Part shown: positions 3,501 to 36,500 of the stretch, in pieces
Numbering within the stretch: position 1 is the first letter of the stretch
Layout of the letters: every line of letters starts with the position of its first letter
Source: Macrocystis pyrifera
Taxonomy: Eukaryota; Sar; Phaeophyceae; Laminariales; Laminariaceae
Assembly: GCA_031763025.1 (NCBI GenBank)
Contig: JASSKH010000015.1
Location: forward strand, 496,001 to 560,000
Direction of reading: 5' to 3'
DNA length: 64,000 nt
The notes under the pieces: generated by a model
Databases searched by the model: none
Seen by the model: the letters and a program-made list of their open reading frames with translations, nothing else
What the model was told of the DNA's origin: nothing
Made by a program: the position numbers and the translations under genes

Positions 3501-6500
3501 AAAATAGCCAACTCCGACCTCTCACCACAAGTATAAAGGCCTTAGTATTAACAGATACTAATACCTACCAGGTATGATAGATTACAATATCATGGTTTGA
3601 TCCCATCACATAGTACATATAATACTATTTTTATGGGGGGTTTTTACATCACTTTTACGTTCCAGCTCAACTCGTACAGATAAAGGTATAGGAAGTTTTA
3701 CCCAGGGCTGCGTTCTGAACAAACCGTGTGACAGATGTCGTCCCTTCTTACCCCCGGTATAAAATCAGTATACCTGCTCTGGTACCTGGTATATGTTTTC
3801 GGTTTAATCGCGCAGAGCCGAGACTTCATCCAGCATCCCCACTGCTCGTCGATTTGCATCGTCTCCTATATTCATTTTTTGCATAATAGTTTAATGGAGA
3901 CAAATAAAATACTAAAACACTCCACAAAACACCTGTGCATGATACCCAAGCGCAAACGCCAGCAAGGCTAGCAGTCTATTCATGATGAATAACAACCTAC
4001 GGTAAGTCCAAGTGTAATGTTGTTGTTGTTGTTGTGCTGCTGTAGGTATATTTGTCAAGTGGTTGAACGAAGTACTATTCATACTAACAAAAAAACACGT
4101 ACATCGTAAAGTCTACTGTAGTACTACAACTACTGTGCGGCCACACATAGATCTTGAAACGCATTTCGTCATCCTTTTATTTTCCAGGGGCACTGTACCG
4201 AAAAATACTCAACTCTGACTTCCAGGATGTTACAGACTACTGTTTGTACAAATTAGAAACAACAGTACCTGCACATGTAAAGTGTTCGAAAAAATGACTG
4301 CTGTGTTGTCAAATTACATTTGTCCTGCCAAAATTAAGGATTGAACCTGTTCATATTTTTCGTCCAGTACGCGTGCAGTACCTGTTCCGGAGAGAGCGCT
4401 CCTGACCACGAGAAATCGAAGCGCAGCTTCTCGTGATCAACCAAGGAGCCCTTCTGATCGCACATACCGTCGGCCGGGCGCAGCACCTGCCCAACATGGC
4501 AGTCAGTGCCAACAATAAAATAAAGAAGCAACCCAAAGGAAAAGTATATTTCAGCGTCAGGTGCACCTCTAACACCAAGACAGGACCAGGACACATTCAC
4601 AGCCCCACAGAAGTGACCGCTGTGGTGATCAAACAAACCAAAAAAAGAGTCGATACTATCAACGACAACATGAAGATTTGGGACTACAGCAATAGTATCA
4701 TGCCGATTTGATACTATTACTATGAACATCATATGTTTTTCATTAATGCGAGCTTTGACACTATTATTAATAACATAAAAAAATGTCCATACTAACGTCA
4801 AGATTTGGTACTATTAACACGAAGATTTGATATATTAACAGCAACTTTTTTGGTACTATATACCCGGTATGTATTATGAAGATTTATTTATGTTATATAC
4901 CAGGTACGTGCCTTCCGGAGGGCGAAGTTGAGCACGTGGGTCATGGTGTGGTTGGGTGCCACATTGGCACGTCTGTCGTAGTCCACCTTGCACACAACTG
5001 TCGACCCCACCTCGACAGTGCCACTCGTCACCTGCAGTACAACAGCACACAACCACACGGTGACAAATCTTGAAGCTTTCATACAAATCAGGTAGATCAG
5101 ACACATCAGACAGATCAGACAGATCAGATTCCCACTGGATCTACAGTAGTAGTAGGTCATGCTAATACTTCAGTACGGTCTTATTCAGGTGCGAAGGGGG
5201 TGACGTAAGGATTAATGGCCTAGAATTATACCTGACACACCAGTAATAGTTACCAGGTACTAAGTAGTTACAACGGTAGCTACGAAGGTAGTTACGAAGG
5301 CATCAATAAGCTAGCGGTTTAGCCTACCTGTATGATAGGAGCAGCAGCTGTACGAGTATTGTAGCTAAAATGTAAGGGGACCGCAGACAGACCAGACCAG
5401 ACCAGACATTAAGGCAACTCGAGCTTGATGCTGCTCCTTGTCTGGTAATCAGCTCAGTTGATGCTTCATGTGCTTGGAAACGGACAGCACCACCGTGGGT
5501 ACAAGGGCGCACGGCAATGCGGCAGACACCAAATTAGACAAAAAACAAGACACCAAGTAATACACAACACTATTAATGTAACTGTTAATAATACACGAAG
5601 TAGTACCAATCAATGTACATATCACGCTATCATACATACTAAACTGGTGCAACCAAGGCAAGTTTGCACGGTTGATTGGCCGACTACCCGGCCAGTGAAG
5701 CGATGGTTATATTACATCACATAGTTGCATCACATTGCTTAGTTTCAGTTTAAGGTTACAATACATGGCTACATAACGTGGTTACATTAAAAGGTTATAA
5801 TACACGGGATGATGCGATATATCACACTGTCGGCCAAACGAACACTACAGATAGTAATGTAAAAACAACTTTGTGCACTAGGTACTAAATTACACTATTG
5901 CTGTGCACTCTGTTTTGCGCGCTACTATTTAAGCTGGTCCTAAATACAATTGTAGTATTGTGTGCACTCTATTTGTAGTCCACTACAGCCGTGATGAGAA
6001 TGTGATGATTCGTTGTCTCGCCTGTCCGACATGGAGCACATACGCCCCAAAGGCGGTGACCTGCTTTACGCACAACGAGCCAGACCCGTCTTCGAACGAC
6101 AGCTCCCCGGTGTCGAAGATCTGGCAACAAGAAAGGCACGGTACATCGATATATTATAGTGTTCAGCATGTCCAGTATTTCCAATACGGTCAATATGTCA
6201 ATATGGTCAATATGATCACTATGTTATCACTATGTTCAATATGTTCAGTACGATCAATCCTTTCAGAATGTTCGATATGTTCGATATGTTCAATACGTCC
6301 CATGTACTTATTGTCTTTAATGCCTACGCCCAATGCGTTCAGAATGTTCCGTACCTGGTATGTTCGATATGTTCAACACGTTCAGGATGTTCAGGATGTT
6401 CAACATGCCCAACACTTTGTGTTCGATATGTTCATCTTGATCTTCACTTGGGCGTATCGGATCGGACCGTGCATTATTTTAATTATTTCACATCACAGTT

Positions 6501-33500: not shown

Positions 33501-36500
33501 CGCAACCCGAATCGCCTCCAAAATAGGCACGAAAACGTCAGTATCGTAGTTCGACATCTTTCCCTGAAACACAAAACAAACAACACAAAGCAACAAACCA
33601 AGACAGGAGGGATAGGGAGGGAGGGGCTCATGAGGTCGTATCACGAGCAATCGGCTCGGAATACGCCGAATACAACAAACTCATTAATATTGCTACAATG
33701 GAACTGATAAAGGTCGGATAACAACTGAGCGGGGGCGAGCCAGAGAGCAAGTGCATTCTACTTCGTACAATAACTACACGTTGTATACAGCAGTAGTGCC
33801 TATCATGGCAAAACCGTGGTCAAGACGGCACTACAGGCGGTAATGCCAATCTAACGGCAAGGAAAGAGGCAGTACGCCACGTGCGAAGACGAAGTGCAGA
33901 TACAGCCTTTCAAAAAATGGATGGGGAGGGTTACTATTGAGGCATAACCTATATCTAACTATAAAACCCTGTGTCTTAACAATTTGTCTTTTATCTATTA
34001 TTAATAATAACAGAGCATTTTATAGCATAGGATAAAAAATGCAGAAAAAAATAATGCCGTGAAATGCAGAAAAGACAAGATAAGATGATACAGGGCAAGG
34101 TGAGGTAGGGCGAGGTAAGGTCAGACAAGATCAGATAAGATAAGCTAAGATAAGACAAGATTTGATACGACACGATCTGACAAGATAAGTTCATATTGCC
34201 TGCAGGATGGAGGCGAGGCGCTCGAAGCCCATGCCGGTGTCGATGTGCTTGTTGGGGAGGTTGCGAAGGCTGCCGTCGCTCTCTCGGTTGTACTGGATAA
34301 ACACGATGTTCCAGATCTGACAGACCACAACAAACGAAATAATCGAAACCATCGGAAGCATCAACAGTCATCAAGAACATAAAAAAGGAAGTCGTTAGCA
34401 AGGCACAACAAGGCAGGGCAATGCTCTGCGGAGAGTCCAGCGCGTGATATTAATACTACTAATAGTACTGACAGTACTCGTAATAGCACTATTTGAAGTA
34501 CCACACGTGGCACTACAGTAGTTACCTGGTACGTACGGAAAGCTACTTGTACTTGTTGAGGTATGTGAACAATTTTGTCCGTCAATGTCCCTGTTCATTG
34601 TCTCTATCCATTGTCTCTATTCAAGTCACGATCGAACTCTGCAGACAATTAAAAGGTAACAAAAACAACAAAAATAACGGGACAACAGAAGCATGACCCA
34701 CACAAAATAAACGTAAGTAACCTAAGTAACCTCTACTCGCGCCACCTCCGTTAGTACGATATTTTCTGGACTGTGCTGTGTATTACTAAGTACAAAAACG
34801 TCCCTATCGTTTGTTCGTGCAGTGCAGGTACCAATGTACCATCCTTGTACGTAACGCCTTACTATTACCTGGTACAGCAGTACTACCTTAACAGTCATAA
34901 AAATACACTGCTTCGAAGCATAGCCTAGCCATATAGAGAAATGTCCTTTCATTTTTTCGCCCGCTTCTATAGATCCCGGGTTTGTGGAAACCGGCAAATG
35001 TACGGTCCAGTTTTCGCAATCAATGATAAAAGTGAAAAGAAAAACTGAAAGACAGACAGTACACAGCAGTACGCAGCCCGTTGGAATGGTTGTTTCGTCG
35101 ATGGCTACAAACGGCCGCATTATACATATTAATACATCATACTTTACACAACGGACATAGAACACTTCTTCCACTACCAATGGTTTTAATCTGCGAAAAC
35201 TATTAATATTAATAGATTCCATCGATTCCAAGTAATCCTAAAACGTGTGCGCAGTTCTGTACGGGGTACGAGTACGCGTACCATTAGCACAAATACAACT
35301 AAAAAAAAACAATACGAGTACGAAATATATACTGGTATAGAAAGTTGAAAACCCCAAAAAATTACAAGACACGACGTGACATCGCATCACGTGACGTAAA
35401 TGCTGTTATCAACATTGAATCACACCAACCATACATACGGTAGTAGTGACTGATACCATATCGTACCATACAGCTCATATCATACCGTACCATACAGCCG
35501 ATACCATACTGCTTTATCAACAGCTGATAGCATGCCGGGACATACAGTAACTGATAGAATAGCATACCACAGAGCTGATAGAATATCGTACCATACAGCT
35601 GATAACATACCTTACCATGCAGTTGATAGAACACCGCACCATGCAGCTGATGGCATACCGTACCAAACAGCTGAAAACATACCTCGATGACTTCGGGAAG
35701 GTCCATGTTGACATCCTTGGCGGCATTGCGACCGCCGATTCGATCGTAATGGATCTCCGCACATGGCCCGCACGGCCCAACGTCTCCCATCTCCCAGAAG
35801 TTATCGGCGCAGCTGAAGGGGAGCACTTGACTCTCGGGGAGGTACCTGCAACAGCGAATATGCAGCAATGAGGCTATAAACATTAGACAACTAGACTATT
35901 AGATTATTGACCATAAACATTACCAGGTAGACTGTTACGACTACTGATCGTTGCTTGTGCTTCGTCATGCATCCCTTTGGCACTCCAGAGGGAGAAGTTT
36001 GGAGGCTATGTGACTTGACTATATTGTAGAATGATGATTGAACCATTGCCCACACCAAGCAGTCCGGGTACACGGTATGGTATACAGTACGGTAAACAGA
36101 ATGATATGCAGTACGGTATACAGTATGTTACACAGTACGGCGTACTGAGATTTGCGACACGCGCGCGGCATGGTGATGTCATTATGTGATCATTTGAGTA
36201 TATCATGATATGATAGTACTGTTCCACGCTCTTCCCAATAATAGACGGTACACGGATCATGCAACCATATGTGTCGTTCTCTAGGTTGCTTTGTTTCTAT
36301 ACGTGTACTGTATGTATGATGGTGATCTTCAAGTCCCAAAAGGGCTAACAATCAACAGCTGAATCCGTAATAGAGCATGTAATAGATCACATGATAAAGC
36401 ATATCATAAACAATATCCGGTGCAATAGATTGTATCATAAATAATATGATCGAGCAAAAATGGGATATAGACGAGACGTATTACGCAGCTTGCAAAGTTG

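Follow-up and report, generated by a model that had tools for sequence, protein, structure and literature searches.

Ordinary GC-AG introns carry a stronger flanking consensus, and dinoflagellates use both GA and GC donors. Among other algae, Aureococcus anophagefferens is a stramenopile, and Micromonas pusilla and Chlorella are green algae. In the part of a many-species survey available to us (PMC3033335), GC-AG introns made up 39.6% of the total in A. anophagefferens, 22.2% in M. pusilla, 7.7% in Chlorella, and 1.3% overall; the three species with high shares were linked there to high G+C, a correlation called weak elsewhere, and the 5' ends of U1 small nuclear RNA (snRNA) were canonical in Aureococcus and two Micromonas. 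A second source, likewise seen as excerpts (PMC7072748), puts GC-AG introns below ca. 1% in model organisms and lists Eurytemora affinis and Oikopleura dioica as GA-AG outliers for which a variant U1 was proposed. Here, we analyzed a 64,000-nucleotide stretch of the brown alga Macrocystis pyrifera (contig JASSKH010000015.1, positions 496,001 to 560,000; referred to as the window, with positions counted from its first letter), a species with a genomic G+C of 50.4% according to the excerpted genome report (PMC10498591). The window carries, on its minus strand, a gene that is, by its protein matches, a cytosolic-type alanyl-tRNA synthetase (AlaRS), in which several introns start with GC. These are probably ordinary U2-type GC-AG introns, served by a normal U1 in a brown alga where their frequency is somewhat raised (ca. 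5%).

GC donors in the AlaRS gene

A sequence-only reading of the window had placed GC donors at 34199, 7729, 6021, and 4911, each preceded by CAG or AAG, and we found all four as described. The donors visible within the window number 15 (63333, 62311, 35682, 34199, 33473, 32171, 29282, 24356, 13791, 7729, 6833, 6021, 4911, 4381, and 466, with 13791 and 7729 placed by eye), and the count of four GC among them holds. Four more donors outside the window (69689, 68957, -668, and -1981) read as GT, giving 4 of 19 for the gene, although the one at 69689 is anomalous. Junctions were scored by combining all possible donors with all AG acceptors nearby, using the protein alignment score only and blind to the donor letters. 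The references were human AlaRS and 80 bacterial AlaRS (the best 80 of 551, mostly planctomycete by title).

As far as alignments of this kind can tell, the GC donors are real. One belongs to the intron at 33564..34199 (minus strand, as are all those that follow; CAG/GCAATA, acceptor TTTCAG, the slash marking the exon-intron boundary), where GC scored 123 and the next class 113 against human AlaRS (a margin of 10), the last 60 exon bases contain no GT, and an in-frame TGA follows the first six intron bases. At 4487..4911 (AAG/GCACGT, acceptor TGGGCAG), GC was the best class against both references, with 88.9 versus 80.9 for human AlaRS (a margin of 8) and 95.2 versus 89.3 for the bacterial homologues. 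The intron at 5032..6021 (CAG/GCGAGA, acceptor ACTGCAG) was ambiguous against human AlaRS (CA, 53; AC, 52; GC, 45); against the 80 homologues, GC was best (62.7) and AC next (59.2), 15 of the 80 preferring AC, and none of the seven classes printed was GT. The fourth intron, at 6987..7729 (AAG/GCAAGT, acceptor GATGCAG), probably has a GC donor as well, judging by its splice-site context. The protein is poorly conserved in that region, and all classes printed for the 80 homologues fell within one unit. There, the best GC reading was a different site (7705), a GT reading at 7725 with an acceptor 19 bases farther on scored 33.5, and the reading at 7729 was absent from the best ones printed in both scorings. 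The sequence-only reading held that family alignment and phase fix all four boundaries and that alternative GTs lose conserved residues or the frame. At 34199, 6021, and 4911, no GT was among the best classes printed; at 7729, the boundary comes from context.

The resolution of the test can be judged from the other junctions. Against human AlaRS, GT was the top class at 10 of 17 junctions (sharing that place with AC at one), GC at 2 (34199 and 4911), and another class at 5 (69683, CA; 62311, AG; 6024, CA; 466, TA; -668, TT), so that several of the GT calls lean on context too. Of the control GT junctions, those at 6833 and 466 were scored as GT against the 80 homologues and that at 4381 as GT level with AC; the junction at -668, outside the window, was scored TT over GT by 0.6, which gives a measure of the resolution of the test. 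A GC donor joined in frame to an AG acceptor, as in U2-type GC-AG introns, was found by protein score at three of the four sites in the window and four of the six described below, with one of the rest tied and two placed by context. Our scripts admitted AG acceptors only, so that what was tested of the acceptor is its frame and position.

Frequency of GC donors in other genes

Outside the window gene, we curated 124 junctions in 15 genes, of which 118 had GT, 6 had GC (4.8%; confidence interval [CI], 1.8 to 10.2%), and none had any other donor. The sample consisted of CCT, EF2, CDC48-like, and RPB2 exons in 32 gene stretches, plus the stretch of contig C220 that holds a second AlaRS-like gene, drawn from an assembly of 537,376,219 bases in 223 contigs; class I synthetase exons were also located and were left out for want of good homologues. 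GC donors occurred in CCT2 (2 of 9), CCT8 (1 of 8), CCT6 (1 of 10), CCT7 (1 of 11), and the C220 AlaRS (1 of 8). They were absent from the curated junctions of CCT1 (9), CCT3 (10), CCT4 (3), CCT5 (10), EF2 (9), the CDC48 genes on C195 (14) and C197 (11), an AAA protein on C219 (5), RPB2 (6), and an HSP60-like gene (1). Four of the six sites were clear on protein score, with a margin of 11 (CCT2 twice, CCT7, and the C220 AlaRS), the CCT8 site was tied with CA, and the CCT6 site was placed by eye.

The spliced aligner gave GT and GC the same cost and penalized any other donor by 4 units. It proposed 139 introns in these genes (138 plus the HSP60-like one), and we dropped 15 as short artifacts or unalignable (aligner donor GT in 6, GC in 2 of 26 and 33 bases, and other in 7). 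Reading the sequence changed the donor at seven of the junctions kept, six to GT, including a former GC in CCT3 and one in EF2 that was already GT at another position, and one to GC (CCT6). In CCT3, the rejected GC call gave way to CAG/GTGAGC, which scored 80 versus 85 for the GC call, and an apparent GA donor in CCT1 proved on inspection to be a normal GT junction farther downstream. Before curation, 123 rescored junctions had GT as the sole top class in 98 cases and GC in 5, the latter being two in CCT2, one each in CCT7 and the C220 AlaRS, and the CCT3 junction that we afterward assigned to GT. GT shared the top place in 8 cases and GC, together with CA, in 1 (CCT8), whereas 11 junctions were led by other classes, spread over AA, AC, AG, CC, CG, GA, TG, and TT. 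When only the 97 junctions with a lead of at least 5 were taken into consideration, GT accounted for 88, GC for 5 (5.2%; CI, 1.7 to 11.6%), and other classes for 4, and a lead of 11 was reached by four GC sites versus one of another class (the GA in CCT1). GC therefore exceeds the scatter of the other classes, although the exact count is soft (four clear, one tied, and one by eye).

These values are far under the genome-wide share near a quarter that had been proposed and are probably above the many-species average of 1.3% (P = 0.006 for at least 6 in 124). A genome-wide rate near 1% is not clearly what we see either, since 4.8% was obtained, though the departure is weaker with the four clear sites.

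Splice-site consensus, U1 snRNA, and GC/GT pairs

The suggestion that strong flanking U1 pairing compensates for the C agrees with the surroundings of the donors. The match to CAG/G.AAGT averaged 6.70 of 8 positions in GC donors (n = 10, four of them the window sites) versus 5.21 in GT donors (n = 132; P = 1.7e-5), and AG at -2 and -1 was present in 10 of 10 GC donors versus 90 of 132 GT donors. U12-type donors are ATATCC or GTATCC-like. The GC donors are of neither kind, reading GCRAG in 8 of 10 and GCAAT and GCACG in the others; the ATATCC donor of U12-type introns is also given in the survey text available to us (PMC3033335).

Inspection of the U1 snRNA 5' end, which the sequence-only reading had advised, gave a canonical result. 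Scoring 42 of 7518 first-look candidates yielded at least 14 U1 matches, and 13 of the 14, that is, all of those above the family cutoff, begin with AUACUUACCUG; the fourteenth (44.6 bits) is below the cutoff and does not have it. Among these 14 matches, we found no intact U1 altered so as to pair with GC. The matches are clustered, with six on C189 (22.14 to 22.20 Mb) and five on C206 (3.48 to 3.50 Mb; one below the cutoff).

Paralogous genes offered direct comparisons of GC and GT at the same intron. At AlaRS residue 252, an intron shared in position and phase has GC in the window gene (34199) and GT in the C220 copy, and GC/GT pairs of the same type were found between CCT2 and CCT6, CCT7 and CCT1, and CCT6 and CCT1 (the GC site of CCT6 being the one placed by eye). 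The CCT2 GC site at residue 263 has no paralogous partner, and near the CCT8 site there is only a curated CCT3 junction whose exact position varies between readings. Such pairs point to plain T/C exchange at +2 in strong sites. The mechanism that we favor is accordingly simple in its parts: a normal U1 snRNA would read the GC donors, the A:C mismatch at intron +2 being offset by good pairing on either side (AG before the cut and R-A-G after it), and single T-to-C or C-to-T changes at +2 of existing introns would be tolerated wherever the site is otherwise strong. Tolerance of this kind could bring GC to ca. 5% of donors genome-wide, with the rate set by tolerance rather than by selection.

Alternative explanations

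The quarter of donors seen in this gene had been taken as the sign of a broadly relaxed 5' splice-site rule similar to that of dinoflagellates. Four GC donors among 15 are indeed more than expected at a rate of 4.8% (P = 0.005 for four or more), but the low share in the other genes, the absence of GA or any other donor from the 124 curated junctions, the canonical U1, and the fact that the organism is a brown alga all speak against such a rule, which we consider very improbable. The same excess (Fisher test, 4 of 18 versus 6 of 124, P = 0.024), along with very long introns and an anomalous first junction, could instead indicate that AlaRS is a special case, in which selection favors GC donors as a means to slow or regulated (alternative) splicing or in which the gene copy is decaying. 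However, the gene was picked for looking odd, so its P values overstate the case, and they increase to 0.078 with the three resolved sites (3 of 17) and to 0.23 with two (2 of 16). Its exons keep the frame and the conserved residues except at the first junction, and the other GC sites are mostly in unrelated housekeeping genes, making a special status quite unlikely. It is also unlikely that one or more of the four introns in fact start at a GT and end at a different acceptor: at 7729, the reading GCAA/GTACTC with another acceptor is compatible with the protein evidence, while 34199, 6021, and 4911 have no GT reading among the best classes printed.

Errors of substitution in the assembly, with true GT sites behind the C letters, are scarcely credible. 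The assembly does seem to contain small errors, to judge from exons of CCT7 and CDC48 with a broken frame and from the odd first AlaRS junction, but these resemble length errors, 10 hits exactly at +2 in 142 donors would imply errors so frequent that the proteins could not have stayed intact, and a stronger consensus at GC than at GT donors is unexpected from random errors. A wider proposal, conceivable though doubtful, is that discrimination at +2 has become less strict throughout the photosynthetic stramenopiles, at a stage that follows the pairing with U1 (U1-C, LUC7, Prp8, or U6 contacts). Brown algae, with their ordinary G+C, would then have an intermediate share of GC and Aureococcus an extreme one, and GT and GC would replace each other freely at conserved introns.

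Several points weigh against our preferred explanation, that is, ordinary GC-AG introns at a somewhat raised frequency. Splicing was modeled from genomic sequence and protein alignment alone, and the human sequences used in scoring were written out by hand rather than taken from a database record. Protein scores settle neither the 7729 nor the CCT6 site. Before curation, 11 of 123 junctions had a top class that was neither GT nor GC, so that the absence of other donors is a curated result. Context entered some of the calls and may inflate the contrast in consensus. Finally, the four clear sites alone give 3.2%, a weak excess over 1.3% (P of ca. 0.08, Poisson estimate). We expect that the transcripts are spliced as modeled and that the rate of ca. 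5% would extend past the conserved genes sampled.

Structure and surroundings of the AlaRS gene

In the spliced alignment, the AlaRS exons run from about 69833, past the right edge of the window, to beyond its left edge, spanning ca. 80 kb on the minus strand. The N-terminal half of the spliced product matched a cytoplasmic AlaRS in the PDB (E = 1.8e-180), which we take to be the human one, and the editing half had weaker matches to other AlaRS entries. Among the best 80 of 551 prokaryotic matches of the editing half, mostly planctomycete by record title, many were Phycisphaerales, with identities of at most 54%. The first junction (ca. 69680) is anomalous, its GT reading lacking two conserved residues; apart from it, the exons hold the frame and the conserved residues.

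Spliced alignment and donor test together support the exons with GT donors at 63334..63394, 35683..35845, 33474..33563, 32172..32381, 29283..29437, and 24357..24441, and the exon at 34200..34316, which ends in ILQ and precedes a GC donor. The exon at 62312..62412 has a GT donor by context (CAA/GTGAGT), the AG class scoring higher (42.5 versus 35.5), and is followed by an intron of ca. 26 kb. The one at 13792..13914 was placed by eye and unscored (GAG/GTGGGA), and that at 7730..7810, in the poorly conserved region, was also placed by eye, the protein scores being undecided, and leads to the probable GC donor. The exon at 6834..6986 has a GT donor according to alignment and donor tests, with its start set by eye. 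For the remaining ones, the donor tests gave GC at 4912..5031 against both human AlaRS and the 80 homologues, GC at 6022..6120 against the 80 homologues (ambiguous against human AlaRS), and GT, tied with AC, at 4382..4486; at 467..547, GT was the best class against the 80 homologues and second to TA against human AlaRS.

The ca. 26-kb intron contains open reading frames (ORFs) with reverse transcriptase, RNase H, integrase zinc-binding, and integrase core domains at 41724 to 44685 (plus strand) and a second reverse transcriptase ORF at 56547 to 57365 (minus strand), and the ORFs at 40572 to 41285, 57512 to 58369, and 58255 to 58932 had no Pfam match. For comparison, the mean intron of Saccharina is 1,057 bp in the accessible text of its genome report (PMC4421812). 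The motif TACCTGGTA is dispersed at 0.61/kb around the window AlaRS gene versus 0.12/kb in the C220 stretch. The second AlaRS-like gene (C220:1651434-1666245) showed no convincing match past human AlaRS residue 457 within the 50-kb stretch examined and may be partial or continue elsewhere. A contaminant origin of the window contig (C195) was considered and found unsupported, since the C195 and C220 stretches have repeats in common (ca. 70 matches, of which the 25 listed span 76 to 95% identity), which supports a single genome. Breaks in the frame of conserved exons, at ca. 69680 in AlaRS, near C190:5196143 in CCT7, and near C195:9175789 in CDC48, are probably assembly length errors.

Comparison with known systems

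Our literature search, which was not exhaustive, found no GC-AG rate for brown algae, and one may exist. At the frequency estimated here, gene predictors restricted to GT would misplace about 1 in 20 kelp introns and break many multiexon models. The kelp would add a photosynthetic stramenopile with raised GC donors, ordinary G+C, and an unchanged U1. The kelp GC donors would not be explained by high G+C, which has been proposed as the factor in Aureococcus, and this would make it easier to test how GC-AG introns become abundant.

Dinoflagellates resemble the kelp in being eukaryotic algae with non-GT donors, but they belong to another lineage and use GA together with GC, while the kelp had no GA in 124 curated junctions; the parallel drawn in the sequence-only reading was therefore not retained. 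The U2-type GC-AG introns of animals and plants share with those of the kelp the AG acceptor and the stronger flanking consensus. M. pusilla and Chlorella, unlike the kelp, are green algae and have a higher genomic G+C. They resemble the kelp in having a raised share with GT still in the majority, according to the survey text at hand (PMC3033335). In animals and plants, the share is ca. 1% in the available portions of both surveys (PMC7072748 and PMC3033335) versus ca. 5% in the kelp. Eurytemora affinis and Oikopleura dioica also have a raised proportion of noncanonical donors, but theirs is GA with a proposed variant U1 in the excerpted source (PMC7072748), whereas that of the kelp is GC, with no intact variant among the 14 U1 matches. 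Aureococcus, in turn, has both a raised GC-AG share and the U1 5' end AUACUUACCUG, as stated in the survey text consulted (PMC3033335), and differs in degree, with 39.6% at a G+C of 69.5% versus ca. 5% at 50.4% in the kelp (excerpts of PMC3033335 and PMC10498591). The kelp is therefore a further, moderate example, at ordinary G+C, of a phenomenon with precedents in other algae.

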